Positions 7,838 to 63,654 of a stretch of DNA of 64,000 nucleotides are shown one piece after another. Each line of letters begins with the position of its first letter. The first letter of the stretch is position 1. The notes below the pieces were generated by a model. That model saw only the letters and a list, made by a program, of their open reading frames with translations, was not told the origin of the DNA and did not search any database. Both the position numbers and the translations under genes were made by a program. The stretch comes from Arthrobacter subterraneus (GTDB lineage: Bacteria; Actinomycetota; Actinomycetes; Actinomycetales; Micrococcaceae): NCBI RefSeq assembly GCF_900099735.1, contig NZ_FNDT01000006.1, forward strand, positions 124,001-188,000. The letters are read 5' to 3'.

Positions 7838-8042
7838 GATCTTCAGCTTCTCTTGGGGGGGGCGACGCCGGTCGCGGTGGAGTAGAGGAACGCGTGTTTC
7901 AGGCTCCTTCCCTGTTGTCTCCCAACAGTGAACTGAGAACTGAATTTTACGCCCGAGCGGTCACCGTCAACAAGGAAGATTGCCTGCGCCAACTAGGCAG
8001 GGAGGCTGGTGCCCGGAGCACGCCGCGCGGTACCGTTCGGCC

Positions 8043-8909
8043 ATGTCGGATTTCCAGCCCCGCGCCCGTATCGGCATCTCGGGGTGGCGGTACGCGCCGT
8101 GGCGGAAGTCCTTCTATCCTCCCGGCCTTCCGCAGCGGTTGGAGCTCGAGTACGCTGCCTCGCAGCTCGCCACCATCGAGATCAACGGGACATTCTATTC
8201 GCTGCAGCACCGGGACAGCTTTGTCCGCTGGCGTGACACCGTGCCGGAGGACTTCCGGTTCTCCGTCAAGGGTCCGCGCTACATCACGCACATGCTCGGC
8301 CTGCGGAACGCCGAAACGGCGCTGGCCAACTTCTTCGCCTCCGGGGTCCTTGCGCTCGGCGACAAACTGGGTCCGGTCCTGTGGCAGCTGCCCGCAACCC
8401 GCCGGTTCGATCCAGACCTCGTGGACGCGTTTTTCTCGCAGTTGCCGCGAACGACGACGGCAGCCGCCTCCCTCGCCCGCGGCCACGATGAGCGGCTCAA
8501 GGACCGGGACTGGGTCACCACCGATGCCGACCGCCCGATCCACCATGTACTCGAACCGCGCCACGAAAGTTTCGGCAGCGAAGAATGCCGCGAGGTTCTC
8601 CGGCGCCACAACGTGGGGCTGGTGGTTGCGGATTCGGCAGAGAAGTGGCCGCAGTTCCGCGAGGTGACGGGCGACGTCGTCTACGTCCGCCTGCATGGCA
8701 GCACCGAGCTCTATACCAGCGGCTATACGGATGCGGAGCTGGATGACTGGGCGGCCCTGTGCCGGGGCTGGCTGACCGGTGAGACGTGCCCGGACGGGCG
8801 CGGCCGGAACGTCTACGCGTATTTCGACAATGACGTGAAGGTCCACGCCCCGTTCAACGCGATGGGTCTCGCGGAACGGTTGAGCCACGACTACCGTGGG
8901 GAGCACTGA
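8043..8909 (+). CDS. DUF72 domain-containing protein
   Basis: A 288-residue TIM-barrel-like DUF72 protein: RIGISGWRYAPWRKSFYPPGLP at the N terminus, INGTFYSLQ, FRFSVKGPRYITH, and C-terminal VYVRLHGSTELYTSGY and VYAYFDNDVKVHAP. These are all hallmark segments. The family is widespread but its reaction is unknown; a nuclease or cofactor-independent enzyme role has been guessed from its fold. ATG 8043 is preferred over the upstream start at 7980 because family members begin just before RIGISGWRY. Confidence 0.9.
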   Translation: MSDFQPRARIGISGWRYAPWRKSFYPPGLPQRLELEYAASQLATIEINGTFYSLQHRDSFVRWRDTVPEDFRFSVKGPRYITHMLGLRNAETALANFFASGVLALGDKLGPVLWQLPATRRFDPDLVDAFFSQLPRTTTAAASLARGHDERLKDRDWVTTDADRPIHHVLEPRHESFGSEECREVLRRHNVGLVVADSAEKWPQFREVTGDVVYVRLHGSTELYTSGYTDAELDDWAALCRGWLTGETCPDGRGRNVYAYFDNDVKVHAPFNAMGLAERLSHDYRGEH

Positions 8910-8934
8910 CAGCGGAATTCAGGGAGGAAATCGC

Positions 8935-9794
8935 GTGGACTTTGACCGCACGCCGGTCTCCGACGGGCAGGCCGTGCAGATCGGGAAGATGACCCTGCGG
9001 GCGGTCGCAACCCCCGGGCACACCCACCACCGCCTCTCCTACGTGGTCACACAGGAGAGCCGGCAGGCTGTTTTCTCCGGTGGGAGTCTGCTGTACGGGT
9101 CCGTGGGCAGGACCGACCTCGTCAGCGACGATGACACGGTCCCGCTGACCCACGCCCAGTAGGCATCGGTGCGCCGCCTGGTGGAGGAAGCCACGCCGGA
9201 CGCCGGCCTTTACCCCACCCACGGTTTCGGATCCTTCTGTTCCGCGGGACCGGCCAGCGGGGCTGACTCCTCGACCGTCGGTGAACAGATCCGGAGCAAC
9301 CATGCCCTCACGGACCAGGACGAGGACCATTTCGTCCAGGAACTGATCGACAACCTCAGCGCCTACCCGTCCTACTACGCGCACATGGGACCGGCGAACA
9401 CCGCAGGCCCCGGACCGGCGCACCTTGACGTTCCTCAACCCCTGGATGCTGAAGAGCTCACCGCCAGGCTCGCGCACGGTGAATGGGTGGTCGATCTGCG
9501 GAACAGGATCGCCTTCGCGCGGGATCACCTCCACGGCAGCGCCAGCTTCGAATACAGTGACGGCTCCAGCTTCACCACCTTCCTCGGCTGGGTGCTGCCC
9601 TGGGACCGGCAGCTCACCCTGGTCGGCGAACGCGACGACGTCGAAAACGCGATCCGAGGCTCTGGGTCCATTGCGGATCCGGCTACCGGGCGTCCGTCGC
9701 TGCGAGTCTGCTTCAGCGCGGCGGCAAGGACGTCGTCCACATCGACGGCCTTTTCGACGACGCCGAAAAGGCCGGCCTGCCCATGAACGGGTAA
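8935..9794 (+). pseudogene. Decayed MBL-fold / rhodanese hydrolase (persulfide dioxygenase-like)
   Basis: Remains of a metallo-beta-lactamase plus rhodanese protein, broken at least three ways. The N-terminal HxHxDH half is missing: homology begins at VDFDRTPVSDG. A TAG at 9160-9162 interrupts LTHAQ*ASVRRL, where relatives usually have an aromatic residue. A frameshift between about 9640 and 9665 moves the rest to another frame, where WVHCGSGYRASVAASLL (from about 9663) is an intact rhodanese Cys loop. It ends at TAA 9792-9794. Preserved pieces include ATPGHTHHRLSYVV, VFSGGSLLYGSVGRTDL and PTHGFGSFC. Relatives oxidise persulfides or move sulfane sulfur. The state of decay indicates loss of function. 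Confidence 0.85.
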
Positions 9795-30592: not shown

Positions 30593-33217
30593 TTACCCCG
30601 TAACCCTCAGCACGCCCTGCGCACCCCGTTCCGCGTCGACCAGTGAGTGGTTGAGGAACATGTAGTTCCCGGCTTCGCCGAACTCGAGTTCCACGAATCC
30701 GCCCTGGGCTGCGGCAAGGTCCAGCGACTGGGCGCCTCCCGTTTCGGCGCCGCCGGGCGGCAGCAGGTAGGCGCCTTCCTTGTACGCGGTGTCGAACTGA
30801 CCGCCCACCACATGGAAATTGGTTCCTCGTGAAGGCCCGGCGGCCAGTACCCAGAGCCGGACCCGCTCGCCGGTTGCAGCCTCCAGCGGGCGGAACATGT
30901 ACTGGTTCGCATGCCCGTTCCACATCACGGCGTCAGGCTGTTCCGCAGCAATCCTGCCGACAGCCACCCTGCCGGCAGCCTCGTCAAGGTAGGCCTCGGA
31001 CTGGATGAGCAGATACTCACGGTGCACCGCGGGCAGGTCCGGTGGATCGATAATCACAGCGCCGAACATCCCGGAGGCGATATGAGCGGAAACCGGCGGC
31101 GTGGCGCAGTGGTAGAGCCAGATGCCGGAATGTTCCGCGCGAAACCGGTAGATCAGCGATTCTCCGGGAGGGATCGTCCGCATCACCTGATCGGGCGCCA
31201 CGGCACCGGCGTGAAAGTCGACTGAGTGGCCCATGGAAGCGTTGTTCACCAGGTTGATCTCGAACGTGTCCCCGACCTTCCCGCGCAGCGTGGGCCCGTT
31301 CACCTGGCCGTTGTACGTCCACGCTTCCTGCTTGACCCCGGGGGCAATCTCGCGTTGGGCCTGCTCAATGGTGAAGGTATACCGGTGGGTAGTCCCGGCA
31401 GCGGCCGGTTCCAGCGCAGCCTCCCGCGCCTTGAAGTCCGGCGCCGGCTTCCGTGACAGGTCGACCGGTTCGGCGACATCGTCAATCGCGCCTGCGTGGG
31501 CACCATGCCCGGAATCCGCTTCTTCGCCGGCAATCGCCCCCAGGGCGTTGATGCCGAAAACCATTCCCATGCTTCGGTGCCCGACGACGGTACACCAGCC
31601 CTCCATATCCTCGGAAACCACACCGACGTCGAGGATGGTCGATTCTCCGGGATGCAGCCGGACCGACTTCACCCCGCCCTGGAAACCGAGGTCGTGGACG
31701 GTCGTCGGATCGTCGTTGGTCAGTTCGATGACCAGCCTGTCTCCGGCGGGCACCACCACGGACGCCGGAAAGAACTGCATGTCGCGCGCAGAGACCTTTA
31801 CCGTCGTGGTCTGCCCGGTCGCTGTCACCGCCGTGCGCTCGCCCAGATTCAGTCCGACGGCGGCGGGGTCAACGACGATCCCCGCCCCGATTCCTGCCAG
31901 CACCACGGCAACACCCGCGGCTGCCCACGCCAGGTGCCGCTGCGGGGGCGGCGGCTGCTCAATGCGCACCCGAACGGGCGCCCCGGGCTCGCTGAGTGCC
32001 GCCTTTCGCCCGGCAACGGAAGCCCTCACTGCGCGGACCATCAGCGGAAGGAACGCGGCATAGGCGCACAGCACGAGGGCCGAGGTGATCACACGTACCC
32101 AGCTCGCCTCGCTCAGCAGGAAGACCAGCAGGCCGAGGTTGATGACCACGATGCGCAGCATGGCAAAACGGCTGAGTTCCGCCAGCGCACCGCGAACCGC
32201 CGCCGGACCGCCGCCCATCACCGTCGGCATGAGGAAGCTCATGGCACCCAGGAGCACCTGGGCCATAAAACCGGCAACAAAGGGAACGGTGAGCGCCTGC
32301 AGCCGGTCAGGCTCCAGGGGTCCGGTCACGATGATGACAAGGAGTGCGGCCAGTGAACCGGCCAGCCACAGCAGGGAGGCGGCAACCGAGAACGTCGAAT
32401 AGTCATCCGGGCGCTTCTGCCGTGCGCAACGGAACAGGTACAGCCCAATGAAGCCCACGCCGTCGAGATAGACGAGAACACCGAGCGCCCCGACAACCGG
32501 CCAGCCGCCCAGCGCGCCTGCAGCCGTGAGGGCAGTTCCGCCGAGCAGCGCGGCCAGGCCCCAGCGCCCTGCCCGCGCGAGCCCGTCAACCATGCGGGTG
32601 CGCAGCATGGTCGGCCACAGCGTGATCAGCGTGCCCATCACTGTGAGCCCCACGAAGCCCAATATATTGACTGCCTGGTGGGCCAGCAGGAATCGCCCAT
32701 GCGCCTGCCCGTCCAGCCCGTAGGCCAGAACGGCGCCGAAGGCTGCACCGACCGGCAGCAACAGCGCCGCAGCAATGTAGTAGCGGATCGTCGCGCCATA
32801 GCGGGACGGCAGCGCCCTGCGCATCTGCTGCATCAGGGAGACCGCATGCCAGGTGACCATCGCACCGACGACGACGGCACCCGCCAGTGTCAGCGCCCAG
32901 ACCCCGGCGAGCACTCCAGCGATCGTGACAACAATGCCGAGGTTCAGGAGACGGATACGCCCCACCTGGGTGCGCCTGGCCTCCTCGCCCAGCCGGTTCT
33001 TCAGGAGCGCCTCGGCGAAGTGCTGGCTCCAGATCAGGATGGAGTTGGTGACCATGCCCAGCACGAACATGTGGACAAGCAGCCAACGGGCCTCGGGCAC
33101 CCACCGGTGGACCATGGCCAGAACGATCAGCAGCACAAACCAGACCAGCACGGGCCTGCTGGCCTTGCGATGCCAGGAAGCCCGAGCCGTCGTCGGCCGC
33201 TGTGGTTTGGTGGCCAT
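30593..33217 (-). CDS. nirK: Membrane-cupredoxin-copper nitrite reductase fusion (NirK-type)
   Basis: An 874-residue three-part protein. Residues 20-400 have about 10-12 hydrophobic helices with membrane His at 49, 66, 124 and 180 (AHQAVNILGFVGLTVMGTLI). Residues 470-555 are a cupredoxin with blue-copper ligands His508, Cys542, His547 and Met550. Residues 605-874 are a two-domain NirK with all ligands: type-1 His664, Cys704, His712, Met717; type-2 His669, His703, His857; catalytic Asp667 and His802. It should reduce nitrite to NO outside the membrane, with electrons entering via the N-terminal part. It begins 21 bases after hmp. Confidence 0.88.
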   Translation of the reverse strand: MATKPQRPTTARASWHRKASRPVLVWFVLLIVLAMVHRWVPEARWLLVHMFVLGMVTNSILIWSQHFAEALLKNRLGEEARRTQVGRIRLLNLGIVVTIAGVLAGVWALTLAGAVVVGAMVTWHAVSLMQQMRRALPSRYGATIRYYIAAALLLPVGAAFGAVLAYGLDGQAHGRFLLAHQAVNILGFVGLTVMGTLITLWPTMLRTRMVDGLARAGRWGLAALLGGTALTAAGALGGWPVVGALGVLVYLDGVGFIGLYLFRCARQKRPDDYSTFSVAASLLWLAGSLAALLVIIVTGPLEPDRLQALTVPFVAGFMAQVLLGAMSFLMPTVMGGGPAAVRGALAELSRFAMLRIVVINLGLLVFLLSEASWVRVITSALVLCAYAAFLPLMVRAVRASVAGRKAALSEPGAPVRVRIEQPPPPQRHLAWAAAGVAVVLAGIGAGIVVDPAAVGLNLGERTAVTATGQTTTVKVSARDMQFFPASVVVPAGDRLVIELTNDDPTTVHDLGFQGGVKSVRLHPGESTILDVGVVSEDMEGWCTVVGHRSMGMVFGINALGAIAGEEADSGHGAHAGAIDDVAEPVDLSRKPAPDFKAREAALEPAAAGTTHRYTFTIEQAQREIAPGVKQEAWTYNGQVNGPTLRGKVGDTFEINLVNNASMGHSVDFHAGAVAPDQVMRTIPPGESLIYRFRAEHSGIWLYHCATPPVSAHIASGMFGAVIIDPPDLPAVHREYLLIQSEAYLDEAAGRVAVGRIAAEQPDAVMWNGHANQYMFRPLEAATGERVRLWVLAAGPSRGTNFHVVGGQFDTAYKEGAYLLPPGGAETGGAQSLDLAAAQGGFVELEFGEAGNYMFLNHSLVDAERGAQGVLRVTG

Positions 33218-33238: not shown

Positions 33239-34408
33239 CTAGTTTGCGGAGCCGATCCAGAGGTCCGGGCCGAACACCTCGTAGTGGATGCGTTCGGCCG
33301 GAACTCCGGCAGCGAGAGCTTCAGCGCGGATGTTCTTCATGAACGGAAGCGGGCCGCACAGGTAGACCGACGCGCCCTCCGGAAGATCGAGTCCCTTCAA
33401 TGACATGAACCCGGGGTGTGCGCCGCCAGTGGGATTCTCCAGCCAGAGTTTCAGCTCCGCGCCGGCGAGTGCTTCGATGTCGGCGTTCATCTGGTCCTTC
33501 AGCGCCCACTGCTCCATGTTCCGCTCCGCGTGAAGCACGAGGACTTCGCGGTCCGAGCGCTGTTCCACGAGGGAACGGAGGATGGATGCGGCGGGAGTGC
33601 AGCCGATACCCGCGGTTGCGAGCACCAGCGGGGTCTCGCCGTCAGCCAGGGTGACGTCACCGTAGGGGTTGGATACCTCGATGGTGTCCCCCACCGCGAT
33701 TGTGCTGTGCAGGACCGGTGATACTTCACCGTTGTCGTCGAGTTTGGTAGTGAAAACGCGACGGTGTGAGCTCGTCTCTGCCGAAAGGGTGTACTGGCGC
33801 ACCTGACGGATTCCATCAGATAACTGCACGCGTACACTCACAAACTGGCCGGGCTGGGCAATGGTTACCGGAGTATCGTCCGCCGGTTCCAGGGTGAACG
33901 TCATGGCTGCGGTTCCGGCCGGCTGCTTGTCGACGACGGCCCAGGGGCTCCATGGCCTGTCATTGGCCTGGGCGGCATACAGGCCCTTCTCGATCTTGAT
34001 CAGCGCGTGGGCCATCAGCCAGTAGACCTCACTCCAGGCGTCGGCGATCTCGCTGGTGATCACGTCACTGAGCTCATCCGCGATTGCCTCGAACAGGTAC
34101 TTGTAGACGACGTCGTACTGCTCAGGCGCGATCCCCAGGGAGGCGTGCTTGTGGGCAATCCGGGAGAGCATCACCTCGGGGTATGTGTCCGGGTTCTTCA
34201 CCAGATGGGCCGCGAATCCGGCAACGCTGCCGGCGAGCGCCTGCTGCTGCGATCCGTTCTTCTGGTTTGAGCGGCTGAACAGCCCGTCAAGCAGCTCGGG
34301 ATGGGCGGCGAAAAGACGGCCATAGAAGTTCTTCGCGATGCCCGGCATGCGTTCGCCCACGAGGGGAAGGGTGGCCTCGACAATGGGAAGGGACTGGTCC
34401 GAAAGCAT
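33239..34408 (-). CDS. hmp: Flavohaemoglobin nitric oxide dioxygenase
   Basis: A 389-residue protein: globin about 1-140 (proximal His in SRIAHKHASLGI, Tyr in the B helix NFYGRLF), FAD-binding barrel about 150-255 (RQYTLSAE), and NAD(P)-binding domain to the end (LVLATAGIGCTPAASILRSL). It oxidises NO to nitrate with O2 and NADH, and slowly reduces NO without oxygen. It follows nsrR and precedes nirK on the same strand. Two perfect palindromes lie directly upstream. Confidence 0.96.
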   Translation of the reverse strand: MLSDQSLPIVEATLPLVGERMPGIAKNFYGRLFAAHPELLDGLFSRSNQKNGSQQQALAGSVAGFAAHLVKNPDTYPEVMLSRIAHKHASLGIAPEQYDVVYKYLFEAIADELSDVITSEIADAWSEVYWLMAHALIKIEKGLYAAQANDRPWSPWAVVDKQPAGTAAMTFTLEPADDTPVTIAQPGQFVSVRVQLSDGIRQVRQYTLSAETSSHRRVFTTKLDDNGEVSPVLHSTIAVGDTIEVSNPYGDVTLADGETPLVLATAGIGCTPAASILRSLVEQRSDREVLVLHAERNMEQWALKDQMNADIEALAGAELKLWLENPTGGAHPGFMSLKGLDLPEGASVYLCGPLPFMKNIRAEALAAGVPAERIHYEVFGPDLWIGSAN

Positions 34409-34515: not shown

Positions 34516-34965
34516 TCAGGCAGATTGACGGGTGTGCAACGTCACAAAAACAGGCCCCATCTGCTGCGGTTTCGGCAGTTCTGCGATGACGAGGTCGTCG
34601 AGCTCGGAGTAGAAAGCCTCACGCGCCCGGCGGAGGGCGGCACGCAGCGAGCACCGGTGGTTGAGGGGACACCCGCCCGTGGCGCTTTCGCAGTCCACGA
34701 CGTCGGTGCGGTCATCAAGCTGGCGGAGCACCCAGCCGACTGTCGCACGGCGTCCGGCAGCGCTGAGAAGCACTCCACCGCTTCGTCCACGCGTAATATC
34801 CACCAGCCCCAGGTCACGCAGCCTCGCGATGGCCTTGCTGACATGGTTGTACGGCGTACCGATGGCGTCCGCGATGTCCCGCGAGGTCAGGAGTTCACCC
34901 GGCGGGGCTGAGGCCAGCAGCATGACGGCGCGCAGGCACACGTCAGCAAACGCATTGATCCTCAT
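34516..34965 (-). CDS. nsrR: Rrf2-family NO-sensing repressor
   Basis: A 149-residue Rrf2 regulator. Winged HTH about 5-70 (FADVCLRAVMLLASAPPGELLTSRDIADA). Three Cys cluster in DCESATGGCPLNHRC (about 91-105), the iron-sulfur site of NsrR. NO destroys the cluster and releases DNA. It precedes hmp on the same strand, with two palindromes between, so hmp and nirK are the expected targets. Confidence 0.9.
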   Translation of the reverse strand: MRINAFADVCLRAVMLLASAPPGELLTSRDIADAIGTPYNHVSKAIARLRDLGLVDITRGRSGGVLLSAAGRRATVGWVLRQLDDRTDVVDCESATGGCPLNHRCSLRAALRRAREAFYSELDDLVIAELPKPQQMGPVFVTLHTRQSA

Positions 34966-35035: not shown

Positions 35036-36277
35036 TCAGCCTGGTTGTGCGCGGACCTGCCTGGGCCGGCTCTTGACCGCGAAGATGGTGAAGAGCAGGG
35101 CGACCAAGGCGGTCACGCTGAGGAGCATGAGCCCGATGAAGTAGCTGTTGTCTTCGGCATTGTAGGTAGCTCCCATCACCAGCGGCGGAAAGTAGCCTCC
35201 CAGGCCTCCGGCAGCGCTGACAATTCCGGCTACCGCTCCAACCTTCTCCGGTGGAGACAACACGCCCACCCAGGCGAACACCCCGCCCGCGCCAAGCCCC
35301 AGCGCCGCAGCCATTGCGAGGAAAGTCAGGCCCGCCGGCACTTCACCGGCGGGTTTGAGGTTGACCACCCAGGCAAGGACTGCCACCGCGGCGAGGGAGG
35401 TGATGACTACCGGTTTGGCTCCGAGTTTGTCCGCGAGGATTCCGCCGACCGGGCGGGCCAGGACTGCGGCCAGAGCGAAGCCCGCCGTGCGGGTGCCCGC
35501 AGCAGTGAGGTCGAATTCGTAGATGTCCCGCAGATACGTGGGCAGGTAGGTGGAGAAGGAGACAAAGCCGCCAAAGACCACCGCATACAGGAAGCACAAC
35601 CGCCAGGTGACACCGAGCTTCGCGGCTCCCACTAGCTTCGCCCGGACTCCCGTGGAAGGTGCCGCGGCCCGGGCGGGAGACTCCTGCATGAACAACCACA
35701 CAACCCCCGCAGTTGCCACCAGAAGCACTGCGATCAGGAGGTGTGTCGCCAGATACCCGATCAGGTCAACGAGCCTGGGGATGGAAAACGCGGACAGTGC
35801 GGTGCCGCCCATCCCGGCGCCAAAGACGCCGGTGGCGAACCCGCGTCTTTCCGGTTCATACCAGGCGGAGACAAAGGGTATCCCGACTGCGAAGACAGTT
35901 CCCGCGATGCCCAACAGAAAACCGGCGGCAATAAGCACCGGATAGGAGCCGATGGTGCCGCCCAGGGCAACCAGCAGGATCGGCGGCACGGAGACCAACA
36001 GCACCGCCGTGAACATGATCCGACCGCCGTACCGGTCCGTCAGCACTCCGACCACAATCCGCCCGATCGATCCCACCAGGACGGGCATCGCCACCAGTGC
36101 CGCTGTTGCGGAGGGCGCCAGCTCCAGCTGCGCTGTATAGGTACCGCTGAGCGGCGCGACCACCGTCCAGGCGAGGAAGCCCACTACGGAGGCCAGCGTT
36201 GCCAGCACCAGGTTCCGGGTTCTCGCTGAACTGGAGATGGCTTCCGGCGGTGCGCCCGTCGGCGTTTCAGCGCTCAT
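35036..36277 (-). CDS. narK: Nitrate/nitrite transporter (MFS)
   Basis: A 413-residue, 12-helix major facilitator protein. It opens NLVLATLASVVGFLAWTVVAPLSG; the GVFGAGMGGTALSAFSIPRLVD and LGLGAGGVFAWVGVLSPPEKVGAVAGIVSAAGGLGGYFPPLVMG segments are nitrate-signature-like glycine-rich stretches. It moves nitrate in and/or nitrite out. Last gene of the narGHJI group, 24 bases after narI. Confidence 0.93.
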   Translation of the reverse strand: MSAETPTGAPPEAISSSARTRNLVLATLASVVGFLAWTVVAPLSGTYTAQLELAPSATAALVAMPVLVGSIGRIVVGVLTDRYGGRIMFTAVLLVSVPPILLVALGGTIGSYPVLIAAGFLLGIAGTVFAVGIPFVSAWYEPERRGFATGVFGAGMGGTALSAFSIPRLVDLIGYLATHLLIAVLLVATAGVVWLFMQESPARAAAPSTGVRAKLVGAAKLGVTWRLCFLYAVVFGGFVSFSTYLPTYLRDIYEFDLTAAGTRTAGFALAAVLARPVGGILADKLGAKPVVITSLAAVAVLAWVVNLKPAGEVPAGLTFLAMAAALGLGAGGVFAWVGVLSPPEKVGAVAGIVSAAGGLGGYFPPLVMGATYNAEDNSYFIGLMLLSVTALVALLFTIFAVKSRPRQVRAQPG

Positions 36278-36301: not shown

Positions 36302-37054
36302 CTAGCGCGTCCGGTTGTCACGGTCGCGCGTACCAACGGGGGCCCAGCCGCGGCGCGTCGGGGAACTGGAGGAACCCCGGCGGTCCCGGGAGCGGTACAC
36401 GATGTAGGGCCTGAAGAGGTAGTGGAGCGGGGCGGTGAACGCATGCACAAGGCGCGTGAAGGGCCAGATGACAAAGAGCAGCATGCCCACCAGCGTGTGG
36501 AGGTGGAAGGAAAACGGAGCGGCCGCCATGGACGCGATGTCGGGCTGGAGGATGAAGAGGGAGCGGAACCACGGGGCGACGGTCTCCCGGTAGTTGTGGC
36601 CGTGCCCACCAAGGAACACGCTCGCCAGCGTGGTCCAGAGGCCGAAGACGATAGCGGCGGCGAGGACTACATACATCATCTTGTCGTTGCGGGTTGTCGC
36701 CATGAACACCGGCCCGATTTTGCGGCGACGGTAGATCAGGATCGCCATTCCGCCGAGTGTGCCGATTCCGGCGACACCCCCGACAAAGAGCGCGTTGAAA
36801 TGATAGAAGTCCTGGCTCATCCCGACCGCTTCAGTCCAGGACATCGGTATGACCAGGCCGAAGAAGTGCCCGGCCACCACCGCGAGTATCCCGAAGTGGA
36901 ATAGCGGCGATCCGATGCGCAGCAGCCTGGATTCGTACAGCTGGGAGGAGCGGGTCGTCCAGCCGAACTGGTCGTAGCGGTAGCGCCAGATGAGTCCGCC
37001 GATGAGCACCGCCATCGCGACATACGGGGCAATCCCCCAGAGCAGGACGTCCAT
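36302..37054 (-). CDS. narI: Respiratory nitrate reductase gamma subunit
   Basis: A 250-residue, five-helix cytochrome b. Haem ligands are expected from HFGILAVVAGHFFGL (about 53-66) and FHLHTLVGMLLFVIWPFTRLVHAF. It oxidises menaquinol and passes electrons to NarH. The tail after about 225 is short and basic. Starts 2 bases after the narJ stop. Confidence 0.95.
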   Translation of the reverse strand: MDVLLWGIAPYVAMAVLIGGLIWRYRYDQFGWTTRSSQLYESRLLRIGSPLFHFGILAVVAGHFFGLVIPMSWTEAVGMSQDFYHFNALFVGGVAGIGTLGGMAILIYRRRKIGPVFMATTRNDKMMYVVLAAAIVFGLWTTLASVFLGGHGHNYRETVAPWFRSLFILQPDIASMAAAPFSFHLHTLVGMLLFVIWPFTRLVHAFTAPLHYLFRPYIVYRSRDRRGSSSSPTRRGWAPVGTRDRDNRTR

Positions 37055-37056
37055 GG

Positions 37057-37731
37057 TCAGCCTTTCGATGAACTGAGCGGCAGGAGCCGCGGATCGTACG
37101 GGTCCAGGCCCACGGATTCGGTGGGCGGCCCTTGCCCCGCCAGGCGCATGACGGCGTTCCGGTCCTCCGGGGACGGGCCGGGGAGGGTGTCGCAGACGGC
37201 CCGGACAATACCCGCGTGGGCCAGCCTGTCGTCCTGTAGCGCCAGCCGGAGCAGCTCGATGCTCGGCCGGAACTTCAGCAGCAGCTCCCGGCCTGCGCCG
37301 GGGTTCACGGTGGCCGAGAATTCCAGGACCATCGGCAGGTAATCGGGGAGCTCACCACCCGTGTCCACCAGCACGTCACTTTTCCGGTACACCTGCTTGA
37401 ACTCCGTGAGCACCTCTCCCCTCCTCCGGGTGTCGCCGTCGGTCCAGTAGGACAGGTGAAGGGCATGCCTCCGGCTCAGGTCAAACTCCTGCACGTAGGT
37501 GGCCTGAATTTCGGGCAGGGTGCCCATTTCGAGTTGCTGAAGGACAGGCTCAAAAGGGGCCAGTGCGCCGTCGTGCTCGGCGAGCGCCGCGCGGATGACC
37601 GGGACCTTCGCGAGCAGGTCCTCATCCGGATAGGAAAGACACCAGGCCGCCGAGAGGTAGGTGACAGCAATCCTTGTGGCCGCCCCGTTGTTCTCCTTCT
37701 TCGATGTCCGGGCACCGAACAGGCCGCTCAT
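37057..37731 (-). CDS. narJ: Nitrate reductase molybdenum cofactor assembly chaperone
   Basis: A 224-residue NarJ/TorD-fold chaperone: AWCLSYPDEDLLAKVPVIRAAL, YVQEFDLSRRHALHLSYWTDGDTRRRGEVL and PDYLPMVLEFSA are family signatures. It helps insert molybdenum cofactor into NarG and is not part of the mature enzyme. Overlaps the narH stop by four bases. Confidence 0.95.
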   Translation of the reverse strand: MSGLFGARTSKKENNGAATRIAVTYLSAAWCLSYPDEDLLAKVPVIRAALAEHDGALAPFEPVLQQLEMGTLPEIQATYVQEFDLSRRHALHLSYWTDGDTRRRGEVLTEFKQVYRKSDVLVDTGGELPDYLPMVLEFSATVNPGAGRELLLKFRPSIELLRLALQDDRLAHAGIVRAVCDTLPGPSPEDRNAVMRLAGQGPPTESVGLDPYDPRLLPLSSSKG

Positions 37732-39398
37732 CGCGGCTCCTCCCCGTCCTGCCTGTCAGGGAACATGCCCTCCGGCACACCGTTCCCGTCCCAATTCAGC
37801 AGGTTCACCCGGCCGCGCAGGGTCTCCCGTCCGCCCGGTGCGTCCGAGGTCTGCCGCTGCTGCAACGCGTGGAAGGTTTCCACTGCTACGGGCGTGGGCA
37901 CGCCGCTGGCCTCTCCGAAGGGTGAGTCCTGCATGCCGGGTCCGCCGTCGTAATCCAGGGAACAACCCATCTCCTCGAGGTCGTGTGCCTGCTCGACGTG
38001 TGCTTTCGGGATGACGTAGCGCTCCTCGTACTTGGCGATGGCCATGAGCCGGTACATTTCGTACATGGTCTCGCCCTCCATCCCTACCGCTTCCGGGATC
38101 GAGTCGTCAGGGTCGTTCCCCAGGCTGATGCCGCGCATGTAGGAGCGCATGGCCGCGAGTTTTTTCAGGACTCCCGTAACCATGTCGGTGTCGCCGGCCG
38201 TGAAAAGTTCCGCGAGGTACTCAACCGGGATTCGCAGCTCATCGATCGCGCCGAACAGGTTGCCGTGATCTTCGGCGTCGTGCCCCTGGTCGCGCAGCAG
38301 GTCCACGATCGGAGAGAGCGGCGGCACGTACCAGACCATGGGCATGGTCCGGTATTCCGGGTGCAGCGGAAGGGCGATCCTGTACACCTTCGCGAGTGCG
38401 TAGACCGGCGACCGCTGGGCCGCGTCGATCCAGTCGTCAGGGATCTCCTGCTCGCGCGCAGCCGCCACAACGGCGGGATCGTTTGGATCAAGCAGGACGT
38501 CAAGCTGAGCCTGGTAGAGATCCCTGTCCTCCGGAACGGAGGCCGCTTCGGTGACCTTGTCGGCGTCGTACAGGAAAAGCCCCAGGTACCTCAGCCTGCC
38601 CACGCAGGTTTCGGAACATACCGTAGGCAACCCCACCTCCACCCTGGGGTAGCAGAACGTGCACTTTTCCGCCTTGCCCGTCTTGTGGTTGAAGTAGATC
38701 TTCTTGTACGGGCACCCTGTGACGCACTGGCGCCAGCCGCGACACTTGTCCTGATCCACCAGGACAATCCCGTCTTCCACCCGCTTGTAGATGGCACCCG
38801 AAGGGCAGGATGCCATGCAGGAGGGATTGAGGCAGTGTTCGCAGATCCGGGGCAGGTAGAACATGAAGGTCTGCTCGAACTCGAACTTGATCTTGTCCGC
38901 GGACTCCCTGCGAACCTTCTCCACCAAGGGGTCCAGGTGGCCCATTTCCGAGGTGCCGGCAAGGTTGTCGTCCCAGTTGGCGGACCAGGTGACTTTGGTG
39001 TCTTCTCCGGTAATCAGTGACTTGGGCCGGGCAACCGGGAAGTCGTCGCCGAGCGGTGCGTCCACGAGGTTCTTGTAGTCGTAGGTCCAGGGTTCGTAGT
39101 AGTCCTTCAGCTCGGGCTGTACGGGGCTCGCAAAGAGTCCCAGCATCTTGCGGAGCCGTCCGCCTCCCTTCAGTTTGAGCCGGCCGCGCTTGTTCAGGGT
39201 CCAGCCGCCGCGCCACTTCTCCTGATCCTCGTAGCGCCGTGGATACCCCTGCCCCGGCCGCGTCTCGACGTTGTTGAACCAGACATATTCCGTGCCCGCC
39301 CGGTTGGTCCACGCCTGCTTGCAGGTCACCGAGCAGGTGTGGCACCCGATGCACTTGTCGAGATTCATCACCATGCCCATTTGAGCCATGACACGCAT
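37728..39398 (-). CDS. narH: Respiratory nitrate reductase beta subunit
   Basis: A 556-residue iron-sulfur protein. Cys groups: CIGCHTCSVTCKQAW (start), CEHCLNPSCMASCPSG, CRGWRQCVTGCPYKK (Trp marks the 3Fe-4S cluster) and CTFCYPRVEVGLPTVCSETC. These bind three 4Fe-4S and one 3Fe-4S cluster linking NarI haems to NarG. The start shares one base with the narG stop. Confidence 0.97.
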   Translation of the reverse strand: MRVMAQMGMVMNLDKCIGCHTCSVTCKQAWTNRAGTEYVWFNNVETRPGQGYPRRYEDQEKWRGGWTLNKRGRLKLKGGGRLRKMLGLFASPVQPELKDYYEPWTYDYKNLVDAPLGDDFPVARPKSLITGEDTKVTWSANWDDNLAGTSEMGHLDPLVEKVRRESADKIKFEFEQTFMFYLPRICEHCLNPSCMASCPSGAIYKRVEDGIVLVDQDKCRGWRQCVTGCPYKKIYFNHKTGKAEKCTFCYPRVEVGLPTVCSETCVGRLRYLGLFLYDADKVTEAASVPEDRDLYQAQLDVLLDPNDPAVVAAAREQEIPDDWIDAAQRSPVYALAKVYRIALPLHPEYRTMPMVWYVPPLSPIVDLLRDQGHDAEDHGNLFGAIDELRIPVEYLAELFTAGDTDMVTGVLKKLAAMRSYMRGISLGNDPDDSIPEAVGMEGETMYEMYRLMAIAKYEERYVIPKAHVEQAHDLEEMGCSLDYDGGPGMQDSPFGEASGVPTPVAVETFHALQQRQTSDAPGGRETLRGRVNLLNWDGNGVPEGMFPDRQDGEEPR

Positions 39399-42300
39399 CA
39401 GTACTGCACCTCCTGGGAACGACGACGGACGCGCGTCACCATGTCACGCTGGTTTCCCGTCGGGCCGAGATAGTTGAAGGCATAGGCCAGTTGGGCGTAC
39501 CCGCCGATCATGTGCGTGGGTTTGACCAGCAGGCGGGTCACCGAGTTATGGATCCCGCCGCGCCGGCCGGTCGCCTCGGATTTCGGCACATCAATGGTCC
39601 GTTCCTGTGCGTGATACACAAAGACCACGCCGGCCGGCATCCGGTGGCTGACAATGGCCCTGCCGACAAGCACACCGTTGGTGTTGACGCACTCAACCCA
39701 GTCGTTGTCCCTGACCTCGATGGACTCGGCGTCACCCGGGCTCATCCAGACGGTCGGGCCGCCGCGGGAGAGGGAGAGCATCAGCAGATTGTCCTGGTAC
39801 TCGGAGTGGATGGACCACTTGGAGTGCGGCGTCAGGTACCTGACGGTGATTTCCCGGGTGCCGTCCGGGCCGAGCTTCGGTTCACCGAACAGACGGTTCA
39901 TATCCAGCGGCGGACGGTAAATGGGAAGTGCCTCGCCGACGTCACGCATCCAGTCATGGTCCAGGAAGAAGTGCATGCGGCCGGTGAGGGTATGCCATGG
40001 TTTGAGCCGCTCGACATTGACGGTGAACGGCGCATACCGGCGGCCTCCCGTTTCCGAGCCGGACCATTCCGGGGAGGTGATCACCGGCACCGGCGCGGCC
40101 TGCGTCTGCGCGAAGGTGATGCGCTTTTCCTCGGATCCCTCGGCCAGATCGGCGAGCTTGACGCCGGTGCGCTTCTCGAGATCCTTGAACCCCTGCACCG
40201 CGAGCTCACCATTGGTGGTACCGGAGAAGGCGAGGATGGCCTCTGCAAGTTTGGCGTCAGTGTCGATTGCCGGACGGCCGTTGCCTGCTCCGCCCCGCAT
40301 CACGCCGTTCGAGTGGCCCAGGCGGTCAACCTCGCGGCTCACACGGTAGGTGATGTTCTTCACCGTGAACCCCAGGGTGTCCGCCAACGGTCCAACGGTA
40401 GCCAGCTTGTCAGCGATGGCCGTGTAGTCCCGCTCCACCACCTGGAAGTTCGGCATGTTCTGTCCAGGCACGGCCGGGATATCTTCCCTCCGCCAGTCAC
40501 GCACCACGCCGCCGGGCTGGGCCACCTGGCCGGGAGTATCATGCTGCAGCGGCACACTGACAAGGTCCTTGCGGACCCCCAGGTGGGTCCGTGCCTGGCG
40601 GGAGAACTCCTTTGCCAGGAGGTGAAAAGTCTCGAAGTCGGACTTCGACTGCCACGGCGGGTCGATGGCCGGTGTGAAGGCATGGACAAAGGGGTGCATG
40701 TCCGTGGAGGAGAGGTCGTGCTTCTCATACCAGGTGGCTGCAGGGAAGACGATGTCGGAGAGCAGGGTGCTCGACGTCATCCGGAAGTCAGCGGTGACCA
40801 GCAGGTCGAGCTTTCCCTGCGGTGCTTCCTCATGCCATTTCACGTCCCTGGGAAGCTGGCCGCTTGAGTGGTCTTCACCCATCACGTTGTTGTGGGTCCC
40901 AAGCAGGTTGCGGAGGAAGTACTCATTGCCCTTTGCGGAGGAGCCGAACAGGTTGGACCGCCAGAGCATCAGGGTGCGGGGCCAGTTCTTGGGCGAGTCG
41001 ACATCCTCAATGGCCGGGTGGAGTTGCCTGCTCTTCAGCTGCGCGGCGATGTACGACGGCGTATCGGTCGCCTGCCCGTTGTCCACGGCGTTTTGAGCTT
41101 CCTCCGCCAGATCCAGCGGGTTCCTGTCGAACTGCGGATAGAACGGCATCCACCCGAGGCGGTTGGACTGGGCGAGCGCGTCCGCCGTGTGCATCCCGTC
41201 AAGGTTCCCGGTGGACAACGGTGACTTGAGGGCGTCAGCGGAATAGCCGTCCTGGCGCCACTGGTCGGTGTGCATGTACCAGTAGCCGGTGCCGATCATG
41301 GTGCGCGGCGGCCTCGACCAGTCCAGTGCGTTCGCCAGCGAAATCCAACCGGTGATCGGCCTGCACTTTTCCTGGCCCACGTAATGCGCCCAGCCGCCCC
41401 CGTTGCGGCCCATGCAGCCTGTGAGCATGAGCAGGGAGAGCACCGCCCGGTAGGTAGCGTCACCGTGGAACCACTGGCAGATTCCGGCGCCCATGATGAT
41501 CATCGACCGGCCGTTGGACTGTTCTGCGTTGCGCGCGAACTCACGTGCCACACGGATGCAGGCCTGGGCCGGGACGCTGGTGATTTCCTCCTGCCAGGCG
41601 GGCGTGTAGGGCGTTGACGCGTCGTCATACCCGCTGGCCCATTCCCCTGGCAGACCGTCCCGCCCTACACCGTATTGAGCGAGCATCAGGTCAAAGACGG
41701 TGGTGACCAGGTGCCCTTCCACTTCCCGCACCGGAACCCCGCGGCGCTGGACGCCCGCCTCACCGGACGGGTCATCGAATCGCGGCATCAGGATCTCCGC
41801 GGTGCCGGCGTCGGCTGTCTCCAGCATGGACAGGGCCGGGTCGGTGTCCCCGAGGTCCAGATTCCACTTGCCCATGCCGCCGTCGTTATAGCGGTGACCC
41901 ATGGTGCCGTTCGGGACCACTGCCTGCCCGGTTTTCCGGTCGAACAGGACGGTCTTGAAGGCATCATCCTCGCCGGGTGCCTGTGAGGCGAGGTCCGCGG
42001 CGGTGAGAAATTTGGTCGGGACCAGGCCGCCGCCGTCGTGCTCTTCCAGCCGGACCAGGAACGGAAGGTCCGTGAACCGGCGTACATAGTCCCGGAAGAA
42101 GGGCACCTCGCGGTCCACGAAGAACTCCTTGAGCATTACATGCCCCATGCCCATCGCCAGCGCAGCATCGGTGCCGGCCTGCGCGGGCAGCCACTCATCG
42201 GCGAACTTGGTGTTGTCCGCGTAATCCGGGCTGACCGAGACAACCTTGGTGCCGCGATACCGCACCTCGGTCATCCAGTGGGCATCGGGCGTCCGGGTGA

Positions 42301-43114
42301 CCGGGACGTTGGACCCCCACATCATGAGGTAGGTGGAGTCCCACCAGTCACCTGACTCCGGCACATCTGTCTGGTCCCCGAAGACCTGGGGGCTGGCCAC
42401 CGGAAGGTCTGCGTACCAGTCGTAGAAGGAGGTCATCACCCCACCGATGAGCTGGATGAACCGTGTGCCTGCCGCATGAGACACCATGGACATCGCCGGG
42501 ATCGGCGAGAACCCGGCCACGCGGTCCGGGCCGTGTGCCTTGATCGTGTGGACGTGGGCCGCGGCAGCGATTTCGACGGCTTCCTGCCAGGAAATCCGGA
42601 CCAGGCCGCCTTTGCCGCGTGCCTGCTGGTAGCGCCGGCGCCGTTCGGGATCATTCACGATGTCTGCCCAGGCGAGCACCGGGTCCTTCAACCGGGTTTT
42701 GGCCTCCCGGTACATGTCAATGAGCACTCCGCGGCCGTACGGATAGCGGACCCGCGTCGGAGAGTAGGTGTACCAGGAGAATGCCGCTCCCCGCGGGCAG
42801 CCGCGCGGCTCGTATTCCGGGCTGTTGGGGCCGACGGATGGGTAATCGGTCTGCTGCGACTCCCACGTGATGATGCCGTCCTTGACATACACCTTCCACG
42901 AGCACGACCCGGTGCAGTTCACCCCGTGGGTGGAGCGGACCACCTTGTCATGGCTCCAGCGGTCACGGTAGAAGATGTCACCGCTTCTTCCACCCTCCCT
43001 GAAGACTGCCCGTCCATCATCCGTTTCATCCCATTTGGAGAAGAAGCGGCCGAATTTCAGAAGCGCGTCAGAGGCCGGACCATCAACCCCCGCGCGAACA
43101 GGTCCCTGTGCCAT
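39398..43114 (-). CDS. narG: Respiratory nitrate reductase alpha subunit
   Basis: A 1238-residue molybdenum bis-MGD enzyme reducing nitrate to nitrite with quinol electrons, on the cytoplasmic face. The FS0 cluster motif HGVNCTGSCSWK with the third Cys in EPRGCPRGAAFSW is at about 50-95. YVGQEKCRPITGW and DFRMTSSTLLSDIVFPAATWYEKHDLSSTDMHP are NarG hallmarks. Length fits the family, no Tat signal is visible. It heads narGHJI-narK. Confidence 0.98.
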   Translation of the reverse strand: MAQGPVRAGVDGPASDALLKFGRFFSKWDETDDGRAVFREGGRSGDIFYRDRWSHDKVVRSTHGVNCTGSCSWKVYVKDGIITWESQQTDYPSVGPNSPEYEPRGCPRGAAFSWYTYSPTRVRYPYGRGVLIDMYREAKTRLKDPVLAWADIVNDPERRRRYQQARGKGGLVRISWQEAVEIAAAAHVHTIKAHGPDRVAGFSPIPAMSMVSHAAGTRFIQLIGGVMTSFYDWYADLPVASPQVFGDQTDVPESGDWWDSTYLMMWGSNVPVTRTPDAHWMTEVRYRGTKVVSVSPDYADNTKFADEWLPAQAGTDAALAMGMGHVMLKEFFVDREVPFFRDYVRRFTDLPFLVRLEEHDGGGLVPTKFLTAADLASQAPGEDDAFKTVLFDRKTGQAVVPNGTMGHRYNDGGMGKWNLDLGDTDPALSMLETADAGTAEILMPRFDDPSGEAGVQRRGVPVREVEGHLVTTVFDLMLAQYGVGRDGLPGEWASGYDDASTPYTPAWQEEITSVPAQACIRVAREFARNAEQSNGRSMIIMGAGICQWFHGDATYRAVLSLLMLTGCMGRNGGGWAHYVGQEKCRPITGWISLANALDWSRPPRTMIGTGYWYMHTDQWRQDGYSADALKSPLSTGNLDGMHTADALAQSNRLGWMPFYPQFDRNPLDLAEEAQNAVDNGQATDTPSYIAAQLKSRQLHPAIEDVDSPKNWPRTLMLWRSNLFGSSAKGNEYFLRNLLGTHNNVMGEDHSSGQLPRDVKWHEEAPQGKLDLLVTADFRMTSSTLLSDIVFPAATWYEKHDLSSTDMHPFVHAFTPAIDPPWQSKSDFETFHLLAKEFSRQARTHLGVRKDLVSVPLQHDTPGQVAQPGGVVRDWRREDIPAVPGQNMPNFQVVERDYTAIADKLATVGPLADTLGFTVKNITYRVSREVDRLGHSNGVMRGGAGNGRPAIDTDAKLAEAILAFSGTTNGELAVQGFKDLEKRTGVKLADLAEGSEEKRITFAQTQAAPVPVITSPEWSGSETGGRRYAPFTVNVERLKPWHTLTGRMHFFLDHDWMRDVGEALPIYRPPLDMNRLFGEPKLGPDGTREITVRYLTPHSKWSIHSEYQDNLLMLSLSRGGPTVWMSPGDAESIEVRDNDWVECVNTNGVLVGRAIVSHRMPAGVVFVYHAQERTIDVPKSEATGRRGGIHNSVTRLLVKPTHMIGGYAQLAYAFNYLGPTGNQRDMVTRVRRRSQEVQY

Positions 43115-43233: not shown

Positions 43234-43890
43234 ATGGAAATCATGAGCGCCGAGACTGAGCAGTTTGTAGGACACATCGCGAGCCTGGGCACCACCTCGG
43301 GCGTCCGCATCGTCATCGGCATGTGGGCGGAGTCCCCGCTGGGGGCATTCACCGACGTCATGGTCCAGAGCAGGGAAGGCACGCGCACCCTCTTGGCGCC
43401 GACGTCGGAGGTGGCCGATTACGTTGCCGGTACCTATTCCTTCGACATCGTCCGCACCGTCCCGCTGACGGTCAGCCTGGGCGAAGACTCGCTTTCCCTG
43501 GACGCCGGGCCACTTGTTGTCCGGGCGGAACTGGGCGGGAGCACCGCCGTCGGACGCCTGCTGGGTCTCGTCCCACGGGCCGTCGGCACCCATCCCCGCT
43601 GGCTCAGCGCCATCAATCCCGTCGCAAAGATCCTCATGCCCGGCGTGCGCACCGCAGGCGCCACGAAGGACGGACGCCGGCAGTTCTACGGCGTCACCGG
43701 CGCCCGCACCATCACCTCGGCGACGGCGTCCTGGGCGGGCGACTCACTCGGCGTACTGACCAGCGTCCGCCCCCGTGTCCGCTTCGGCTTCAGCTCGGTG
43801 CCGAAGAAGCCGCAGGTGGTGGACGTCACGACGACGGTGCTGCCGCCGGCTGCCTCACCCGCCCGGGAGAGCGCCGAAGAGAGCTACTAG
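43234..43890 (+). CDS. Conserved hypothetical protein, actinobacterial type
   Basis: A 218-residue soluble protein with no membrane helix or signal peptide. FVGHIASLGTTSGVRIVIGMW, SREGTRTLLAPTSEVADYVAGTYSFD and SINPVAKILMPGVRTAGATKDGRRQFYG read like a single conserved beta-rich domain of unknown function. ATG 43234 and 43243 are both possible; neither has a strong ribosome site. It is divergent from narG (119-base gap), where TTCGGCCGAA at 43156-43165 is a perfect palindrome. Confidence 0.6.
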   Translation: MEIMSAETEQFVGHIASLGTTSGVRIVIGMWAESPLGAFTDVMVQSREGTRTLLAPTSEVADYVAGTYSFDIVRTVPLTVSLGEDSLSLDAGPLVVRAELGGSTAVGRLLGLVPRAVGTHPRWLSAINPVAKILMPGVRTAGATKDGRRQFYGVTGARTITSATASWAGDSLGVLTSVRPRVRFGFSSVPKKPQVVDVTTTVLPPAASPARESAEESY

Positions 43891-44063: not shown

Positions 44064-47324
<3,261 letters not shown>

Positions 47325-57715: not shown

Positions 57716-58951
57716 TTATGAGCTAGGGGCACCGATGCCTCTTCCTTCGAGCTGCTGTGGGGCAAGTGCATGATTGATGGCCATAATGCCGGCGCCGACC
57801 ACGCCCGCTTGCGCTCCCATTTGGGACAAAACGATGGACAGGTTCTTGGTCGCCAGTGGCATTGAACGAGAGTAGACGGCTTCACGGATCCCAGCCATGA
57901 CATGTTCACCCGCGGCCGAAAGTGAGCCGCCGATGACGATGACGGAAGGATTCACTACCGCCACGCACATGTTCAGCATGCCCCCGATATCGCGTCCAGC
58001 CTGCCGAACAGCCAGGAGTGCAGCTGGGTTGCCCTCACGCACTAATTTGATGATGTCATCACCCTTGGCTACTTCGAGTCCTTCCGCCGCAAGGTCTCGA
58101 ACTAGTGCCGGGACTGCGGCGATTGCTTCAAGGCATCCATAGTTGCCGCAACGACATAGCGTGCTTTTAGCCCTGTCGGCGAATATGTGGCCGATATCCC
58201 CCGCCGAACCATCCGAGCCGTGTTGCAATCTACCACCGCTGATAATGCCGGCTCCGATACCGGTTGCCACTTTCACAAAAATCATGTGCTGCACATCGGG
58301 CCAGCACATCGCCTGCTCACCCAACGCCATGATGTTGACATCATTGTCGACGAGCACAGGTACGTTCCAAGTTCTGCGGACATAAACAGGTACCTCGAAC
58401 CCATCCCAGCCAGGCATGATCGGCGGATTCGTGGGCGTACCAGTTGAGTATTCAACCGGGCCCGGAAGCCCTATACCGATACCGATAAGGTCAGACGGCT
58501 GCCGGGCGAGATCGCCGAGCAAAATTCCGATAGTTTCCACCAGCCAATCCAGCACCGCGGTTGGGCCAAGAGAGATCGCGCGACTTTCCCGCACTTCCGT
58601 CAGGACGCTGCCGCTGAGGTCCGTGATCGCGACCGTTGCATGGGTAGCGCCCAAATCTGCCGCAGCTACTACCCGTGCCTGCGGATTGAATGCTACCCGT
58701 GATGACGGGCGCCCACCGGTGGAAGCAGCATCTGCCACGGTAGCTATGAAACCAACTTCGATAAGTTCATCTATCCGGGATGAAACTGTTGCTCGCGCGT
58801 AACCAGTGAGCGAAGCCAATTCAGCTCTGGTCCGGGGTTTCCCGTCCCTCAGCAGTTGAAAAAGCTCGCTGGCTCCGACACCGACTGCCGTTCCTTCCGC
58901 ATGGCGTCCCAATGACGCATTTCTAGGAGCTTCGCTTCGGGTAACTGTCAC
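57716..58951 (-). CDS. ROK-family transcriptional regulator
   Basis: A 411-residue repressor. N-terminal HTH about 25-75 (LRDGKPRTRAELASLTGYARATVSSRIDELIEVGF). ROK sugar-binding/kinase fold follows with AADLGATHATVAI and the zinc/ROK signature CRCGNYGCLEAIAAVPAL. It is divergent from the Gfo/Idh-ABC operon and its likely repressor, released by a sugar. Confidence 0.93.
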   Translation of the reverse strand: MTVTRSEAPRNASLGRHAEGTAVGVGASELFQLLRDGKPRTRAELASLTGYARATVSSRIDELIEVGFIATVADAASTGGRPSSRVAFNPQARVVAAADLGATHATVAITDLSGSVLTEVRESRAISLGPTAVLDWLVETIGILLGDLARQPSDLIGIGIGLPGPVEYSTGTPTNPPIMPGWDGFEVPVYVRRTWNVPVLVDNDVNIMALGEQAMCWPDVQHMIFVKVATGIGAGIISGGRLQHGSDGSAGDIGHIFADRAKSTLCRCGNYGCLEAIAAVPALVRDLAAEGLEVAKGDDIIKLVREGNPAALLAVRQAGRDIGGMLNMCVAVVNPSVIVIGGSLSAAGEHVMAGIREAVYSRSMPLATKNLSIVLSQMGAQAGVVGAGIMAINHALAPQQLEGRGIGAPSS

Positions 58952-59078
58952 ACCGGTTCCTCTTCTTTCTACTGCCTCGCGCCTCAGCTACAGTGCCTCG
59001 CCTTTGCGCGCCATACATCTCTCGCTCTCAAGAATACGGGGTACTTATGCTGCGCGATAGTTGAGTTTTGCTTTCCTC

Positions 59079-59106
59079 TTGACATAAGTAGGGTGATACA
59101 TGTCAA
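59079..59106. promoter_or_regulatory. Inverted repeat / promoter-like element before the Gfo/Idh operon
   Basis: TTGACAT (59079-59085) and ATGTCAA (59100-59106) are perfect 7-base arms with a 14-base spacer. TTGACA is also a consensus -35. It is a candidate ROK operator overlapping the promoter. Confidence 0.45.
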
Positions 59107-59110
59107 ACTA

Positions 59111-60271: not shown

Positions 60272-60313
60272 CACCGGCTAGAACCGGTTTCGATACAAGG
60301 GAGTATTACCGTC

Positions 60314-61750: not shown

Positions 61751-61772
61751 CCAAGCCTCCATGGAGAAACCC

Positions 61773-62735: not shown

Positions 62736-62737
62736 CC

Positions 62738-63595: not shown

Positions 63596-63654
63596 CTATC
63601 CGGCACACTCGAATCGCCCACACCCCCCACTGAACTCATCGATTGGAGCCACCA

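Follow-up and report, generated by a model that had tools for sequence, protein, structure and literature searches.

A nitrite reductase of Arthrobacter subterraneus fused to a membrane domain with a likely haem-copper oxidase-like fold

Results

A membrane domain, a cupredoxin and NirK in one reading frame

We analysed a 64 000-nucleotide stretch of the Arthrobacter subterraneus genome (contig NZ_FNDT01000006.1, positions 124,001 to 188,000; hereafter the window, with position 1 as its first letter). The gene of interest is a minus strand open reading frame at 30593–33217, which encodes 874 residues in a single unbroken frame and joins a membrane domain to a blue-copper cupredoxin and a copper nitrite reductase (NirK). 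The initial annotation had proposed a single chain of this composition, and the frame, the domain matches and the reading of the metal ligands all confirm it. Its parts are as follows:

30593..33217, minus strand: whole gene, membrane domain plus cupredoxin plus NirK in one chain of 874 aa (open reading frame and whole-length homologues)
32018..33160, minus strand: 12-helix membrane domain, residues 20–400, with a likely haem-copper oxidase (HCO) subunit-I-like fold of three four-helix repeats (profile, repeat and model comparisons)
33071..33073, minus strand: codon of invariant His49 on transmembrane helix (TM) 2, a predicted haem ligand (39/39 in both alignments; ligand role predicted)
32678..32680, minus strand: codon of invariant His180 on TM6, a predicted haem ligand in an H-x6-G-x14-P motif (39/39 in both alignments; motif 39/39; ligand role predicted)
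31871..31936, minus strand: 13th helix, residues 428–449, probably leading the chain to the outer face (model helix at pLDDT <50; hydropathy peak at 431–449; side taken from loop charges)
31538..31852, minus strand: cupredoxin, residues ~456–560, with the type 1 copper set H508, C542, H547 and M552 (Pfam Cupredoxin_1 and ligands)
30596..31402, minus strand: NirK, residues ~606–874, with type 1 and type 2 copper sites, D667 and H802 (TIGR02376, PDB 2dv6 and ligands)

Pfam matched no family over residues 1–450 of the protein. Further along the chain, Cupredoxin_1 (PF13473) was found at residues 467–531 with 33.4 bits, above its cut-off of 27 and as expected of a blue-copper cupredoxin, and Cu-oxidase_3 at residues 617–726. 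The NCBIfam model for copper nitrite reductase, TIGR02376, covered residues 610–874 with an E-value of 9.9e-47 but just 159.8 bits, where the equivalog cut-off is 296.3. An E-value of this size shows homology, and the missed cut-off lowers the label, not the evidence from the ligands. Because the NirK part scores below the cut-off, genes of this type would escape annotation by TIGR02376 alone. The top PDB match was 2dv6 (residues 483–874, E 3.5e-44), an entry listed as nitrite reductase, which we take to be the cupredoxin-tethered NirK of Hyphomicrobium denitrificans.

In the translation, the NirK part holds type 1 copper ligands at H664, C704, H712 and M717, type 2 ligands at H669, H703 and H857, and the catalytic pair D667 and H802, so that the window protein has the whole His-Cys-His-Met, three-His and Asp-His set of a NirK. 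These roles were assigned by the known NirK pattern, which also appears in the accessible text of PMC4770552. To judge conservation, 67 frames were reduced to 39 distinct whole-length fusions, the window protein included, by removal of duplicates. The four cupredoxin ligands are identical in all 39, as are all the copper and catalytic residues of NirK except M717 (36 Met, 3 Leu), and the complete ligand sets that had been described for both domains are borne out. Averaged over pairs of fusions, identity is highest in NirK (61%), followed by the cupredoxin (50%) and the membrane part (45%).

Distribution of the fusion

The whole chain was present in one frame in 41 of 149 same-family genomes, our own included (38 as one match and three split into two matches, overlapping or adjoining, within an open reading frame), and the fusion is therefore no chance joining of genes. 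The 37 one-piece same-family matches other than our own are 47–65% identical to the window protein. Across the phylum, 51 of 396 genomes gave a match to the membrane domain at E ≤ 0.001. Among 30 phylum loci fetched there were eight whole fusions, again counting our own, and 13 membrane-domain frames that gene calling gave as separate, of 404–485 aa; the other nine were left unsorted.

Two variants of the architecture were seen. One genome (G096) has, beside its own fusion, a second gene (C10:22158-23372) whose 466-aa frame holds the cupredoxin and NirK parts only (461–872, 43% identical), without a membrane domain. At L066 (genome G110, 7950–9383) the membrane domain lies in a 477-aa frame that stops shortly past the linker helix. 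This is probably a truncated fusion gene; the other member of its genus (L022, G021) has a whole one.

A probable resemblance of the membrane domain to haem-copper oxidase subunit I

The membrane domain was compared with the HCO subunit I families COX1 and CcoN. For this we chose an alignment of 39 members (A1), made up of the window, L005, L006, L066, nine of 29 other same-family loci and 26 phylum loci; four of the 30 phylum loci were omitted, namely L036 (our own locus), L052 and L056 (which contain stops) and L059. The CcoN-like set comprised eight of 15 loci found, and the COX1 set 21 of 30 loci, with L118 excluded as too short, three partial sequences retained and the rest unused. Structural modelling and hydropathy gave twelve helices plus a linking helix, in place of the 10–12 helices first counted. 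When the family was compared with itself by hhalign, TM2–7 aligned with TM6–11 (E 2e-7), and the three four-helix thirds matched one another (first and second 3.2e-6, second and third 2.8e-4, first and third 7.8e-4). The domain thus appears to be built of three four-helix repeats, like HCO subunit I.

Several comparisons point to the same fold. Foldseek searches were made with AlphaFold models of the window protein (pLDDT 60, pTM 0.57) and of a homologue 50% identical to it (pLDDT 66.5, pTM 0.68), each based on a three-sequence alignment. Among the 50 matches listed for each, all four rows with a probability of at least 0.9 for the window model were HCO subunit I, as were all ten for the second model, with TM-scores up to 0.63; for supercomplex entries in the latter, the chain was assigned from its length. 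By hhalign, all members together matched a joint COX1 and CcoN set at E 7.4e-5 and CcoN at 4.5e-4. Single members of A1 gave weak library matches in Pfam and NCBIfam to COX1 (2/39, best 3e-4) and ccoN (3/39, best 0.0032), and the COX1 Pfam model, run over 45 genomes, gave sub-cut-off matches at two known family loci, in G149 (4.5e-6) and G175 (2.0e-5). Finally, the family profile found a 150-aa four-helix protein in G151 (locus L136; E 5.3e-11) that is also matched by the CcoN (2.8e-8) and COX1 (9.9e-8) models, both below cut-off, and that has a helix reading HAHINLLGW...P. This protein would bridge the NirK membrane domain and the oxidases.

Other results weigh against an HCO-like fold. Single members also gave weak matches to unrelated library families (SCO2097 in 7/39, best 0.011; 7TMR-DISM in 1/39, 6.4e-4; and further single weak ones). 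The COX1-only set was matched by all members together at E 0.18, and when the un-fused subset was compared with COX1 plus CcoN, the forward value of 0.013 was outscored by the reversed-sequence control (7.5e-4), the remaining reversed controls being 0.019 and weaker. Against PDB sequences the family profile found no HCO at E ≤ 10 (best match SemiSWEET, 0.19), and in 119 genomes at the same threshold it reached no full-length COX1 or CcoN locus, just the bridging protein. Both models are of low confidence, and the Foldseek E-values, despite probabilities of 1.00, were at least 0.037, with none below 0.001. The reversed control, the absence of full-length HCOs from the profile search of the 119 genomes and a CcoN motif count given below are nevertheless small beside the fold matches and the bridging protein, and we consider it likely that the membrane domain has an HCO-like subunit I fold.

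Small four-helix proteins such as that of L136 were seen a second time, in a 204-aa frame at L135 (G176). Both look like a single HCO subunit I repeat that includes the HxH helix, and they may be living single-repeat relatives.

An invariant histidine pair and no binuclear site

The members of A1 are 25–65% identical to the window's membrane domain and share nine invariant residues: W45, H49, G54, G161, H180, G187, P202, W284 and G316. H49 on TM2 and H180 on TM6 are the sole invariant His, in 39/39 sequences both in A1 and in the alignment of the fused set. Intramembrane His had been noted at 49, 66, 124 and 180; the first and last of these hold throughout, whereas H66 (28/39 in A1, 32/39 in the fused set) and H124 (21/39 and 38/39) vary. 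Since neither is invariant, H66 and H124 are weakened as candidate haem ligands.

H180 stands 22 residues before P202 and seven before G187, while H49 stands five before G54, which hhalign levels with G187. In a CcoN-like sequence (L086), the distances to the helix proline are 22 for the TM2 His, 22 and 20 for the TM10 His and 20 for the TM6 His; we take the TM2 His to bind low-spin haem, those on TM10 high-spin and low-spin haem, and that on TM6 CuB. H49 and H180 would therefore sit, on neighbouring repeats, at the equivalents of the two positions by which TM10 and TM2 bind low-spin haem. Read in register, their pocket would be the third one of the HCO scaffold, between TM2 and TM6, an inter-repeat pocket that to our knowledge is empty in oxidases. 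The helix of H180 carries the motif H-x6-G-x14-P, found in 39/39 members and 17/21 COX1 sequences compared with 2/37 other polytopic proteins.

Two points tell against this assignment. The spacing would fit the TM6 CuB and TM10 high-spin haem pair equally well; because the same two positions on those helices hold CuB and high-spin haem, spacing alone cannot tell the ancestral pocket, and the HCO pocket of origin appears ambiguous. The repeat register of H49 depends on Gly54, with no proline anchor. As evidence on the fold, the H-x6-G-x14-P motif has the limit that it occurs in just 2/8 CcoN-like sequences.

The HCO binuclear-site set (TM6 His, TM7 His-His and TM10 His) is absent from the 39 members. 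None has a His at TM10 positions 309 or 311, and no column of A1 other than 49, 66 and 180 has His in at least 60% of members, which together make a binuclear site very unlikely by sequence. A second TM6 His, at position 182, occurs in 13/39; neither Cys nor Met reaches 60% in any column. Its best fold matches, its apparent four-helix repeats, its H-x6-G-x14-P helix and the bridging protein liken the domain to CcoN, COX1 and NorB. It is set apart from them by the lack of a His pair on TM7 and of a TM10 His and by a single pair of invariant His, on TM2 and TM6. Such a domain could hold one bis-His haem, and on balance we favour the presence of haem.

Gene neighbourhood and un-fused relatives

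Ahead of the fusion gene, in the same orientation, come genes with predicted roles in NO detoxification, regulation, nitrate/nitrite transport and nitrate respiration:

33239..34408, minus strand: flavohaemoglobin-like gene (Hmp, NO detoxification), separated from the fusion gene by 21 bases (globin, FAD and NAD domains; NO-inducible flavohemoprotein model 307.9 bits, below the cut-off of 432)
34516..34965, minus strand: Rrf2 regulator, nearest NsrR (NsrR model 80.9 bits, below the cut-off of 182)
35036..36277, minus strand: NarK-like nitrate/nitrite transporter (184.9 bits, below the subfamily cut-off of 311.7)
36302..43114, minus strand: narGHJI, respiratory nitrate reductase and nitrite source (four genes above NCBIfam cut-offs)

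This gene order is not general among fused loci, since narGH was near the fused gene in just five of the 29 other fused loci scanned (L140, L142, L144, L071 and L073). NsrR- and Hmp-like genes were near it in one further locus (L077).

Thirteen un-fused or truncated loci were surveyed with flanks of 7–17 kb. In four of them (L074, L078, L081 and L082) a NirK- or multicopper-oxidase-like gene is close to the un-fused membrane gene. At L082 the membrane gene is 6 bases ahead of a NirK that exceeds the TIGR02376 cut-off, and at L048/L078 it adjoins a NirK-like gene for which TIGR02376 is the best model, below cut-off. The genes near L074 and L081 are multicopper-oxidase-like, with copper_res_A as the best model. 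Elsewhere, nosZ lies 2.7 kb from the un-fused membrane gene (L075) and a NarK-like gene neighbours it (L072). At the eight loci besides L074, L075, L078, L081 and L082, phmmer with the cupredoxin and NirK parts of the window protein matched no called gene.

A possible electron route to NirK

With the N-terminus on the inside, the loops of the membrane domain have 27 Lys and Arg on the inner side and three on the outer; by these charges H49 and H180 would be close to the outer surface, and the cupredoxin would be outside the membrane. Possible partners were sought in the organism's own genome. PF00034, the sole cytochrome c family searched, matched a single 299-aa frame, at two places; the frame shares its contig with COX1 and is presumably QcrC. 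PF00127 matched one small blue-copper frame besides the fusion. PF00115, which we take to cover NorB as well as COX1, matched once, at an aa3-type gene, so that no NorB was found by this model; neither was NosZ by TIGR04246, the Tat-type model not having been run. As neither NorB nor NosZ was matched in the genome, NO is likely to be removed by the adjoining flavohaemoglobin.

A possible mechanism can be drawn from these features. The membrane domain would be a divergent, non-catalytic relative of subunit I of the HCOs and NO reductases, keeping the scaffold of three times four helices and lacking the binuclear site, with one bis-His haem b bound, close to the outer side, between H49 of TM2 and H180 of TM6. 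A reductant of the membrane pool, most likely menaquinol, would reduce the haem, from which electrons would pass to the type 1 copper of the cupredoxin, then to the type 1 copper of NirK and on to its type 2 copper. There nitrite, supplied by the upstream narGHJI, would be reduced to NO, to be cleared by the flavohaemoglobin, and NirK would presumably stand as a trimer on the outer face.

We regard the chances as evenly balanced that the protein is a copper nitrite reductase supplied with electrons by a membrane part of its own, in which the non-catalytic HCO-like domain serves as a wire. Quinol as the donor to the fusion protein is plausible, at slightly less than even chances. In the broadest form, the domain would represent a new non-catalytic branch of the HCO fold, with a low-spin haem pocket between TM2 and TM6 (the one we believe empty in oxidases), acting as a general quinol-to-cupredoxin wire that many actinobacteria fuse to NirK and others encode as a separate gene beside NirK-type genes, once near nosZ; this we put forward tentatively, as a minority expectation. 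The initial annotation had suggested a membrane part, perhaps haem-bearing, that passes electrons to the cupredoxin. That suggestion holds in part: the HCO-like fold is likely, the invariant His pair is at repeat-equivalent haem positions, the loop charges place the cupredoxin outside, and a single PF00034 frame was found.

One earlier observation weighs against such a route. In the H. denitrificans NirK, the N-terminal cupredoxin is ~24 Å from the core type 1 copper and its role in electron transfer has been doubted, according to the accessible text of PMC7201279. This would count against the mechanism unless the membrane part alters the geometry.

Alternative roles for the membrane domain

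The membrane domain could instead be an anchor or assembly part only, with the cupredoxin fed directly by the bcc-aa3 complex through its membrane-bound di-haem cytochrome. A candidate for that cytochrome is at hand in the two-match frame on the COX1 contig, if it is QcrC as we assume, and NirK can do without the membrane part, as in the 466-aa frame of G096 and in actinobacterial NirK mentioned in the accessible text of PMC4770552. Invariance of H49 and H180, in members down to 25–30% identity to the window protein, is not to be expected of a pure anchor; twelve helices are also more than an anchor needs, and the domain persists as a separate gene. On this evidence we think an anchor unlikely.

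A metal other than haem iron was also weighed. The two His might bind copper or another ligand, with the domain handling copper for NirK maturation, or sensing or channelling NO or protons. Membrane His could bind copper, and the un-fused relatives at L074 and L081 lie near multicopper-oxidase-like genes. The spacing of the pair, however, fits the haem-ligand helices of HCOs, and the family alignment lacks the Cys or Met columns noted above, which leaves a copper role distinctly improbable.

A NirK joined to an active HCO-type NO or O2 reductase, so that one chain turned nitrite into N2O, would suit the HCO-like fold, but with the CuB and high-spin haem ligands missing from all 39 members it was rejected as very improbable on the ligand survey. 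The initial annotation had left it undecided whether the domain was HCO-like or NnrS-like, and profile search and structure prediction favour the former: NnrS, which we take to be a 12-helix, denitrification-linked haem/copper protein, was rejected as no less improbable, its model PF05940 matching 0/39 members at E ≤ 1 and giving one weak sub-cut-off match in 119 actinobacterial genomes, and hhalign against four NnrS sequences yielding E 0.26–0.63.

Relation to known nitrite reductases

The three-part architecture is already published. Helen et al. (2016; PMC4770552) described, in the text accessible to us, NirK of about 900 aa from Propionibacterium acnes and other actinobacteria with a 400-aa membrane domain, a cupredoxin and NirK, the same domain order as in the window protein; all actinobacterial NirK in their set carry a cupredoxin, and the membrane domain is termed 'of unknown function'. 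By this description, the window fusion almost certainly belongs to the same family. That account, as far as its accessible text goes, names neither a fold nor a His pair and mentions no un-fused relatives. To it the present analysis adds a likely HCO-like identity for the membrane domain, the invariant His pair and relatives encoded as separate genes. A search of the open-access literature, which leaves most subscription journals outside its coverage, found no fold or function assigned to this membrane domain. The fusion is common in its family and known in architecture; the novelty lies in the likely assignment of the membrane part.

Two other systems offer comparisons. The H. denitrificans protein (2dv6, by our assumption) is like the window protein in having a cupredoxin followed by NirK. 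It differs in that it has no membrane domain and forms a hexamer (PMC7201279, accessible text).

The quinol-dependent NO reductase qNOR combines an HCO-fold membrane part and an extramembrane redox domain in one quinol-fed chain. The window protein has the same one-chain plan, with a membrane part of likely HCO-like fold and a redox domain outside, except that here the copper domain outside, not the membrane part, is the catalyst.

How NirK is supplied with electrons in bacteria without the soluble donors of Gram-negatives is an open question. The membrane-bound NirK activity of Bacillus azotoformans is reported, in the accessible text of PMC3475470, to draw on menaquinol, though the route is unclear. 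A fused quinol-to-copper wire, if correct, would answer the question for many actinobacteria, and the oxidase fold would gain a further use, in wiring rather than in the reduction of oxygen or NO.

Other features of the window

Divergent to narG, on the plus strand at 43234–43890, is a 218-aa gene that has no NCBIfam match at E ≤ 1e-20. It is followed at 44064–47168, on the minus strand, by a homologue of LacZ-type β-galactosidase that scores below the cut-off in each of the nine families listed. Towards the end of the window, positions 58000–64000 have a G+C content of ~0.57, compared with 0.61–0.70 elsewhere, and span what by eye appears to be a sugar ABC transporter operon; this segment is possibly acquired DNA.

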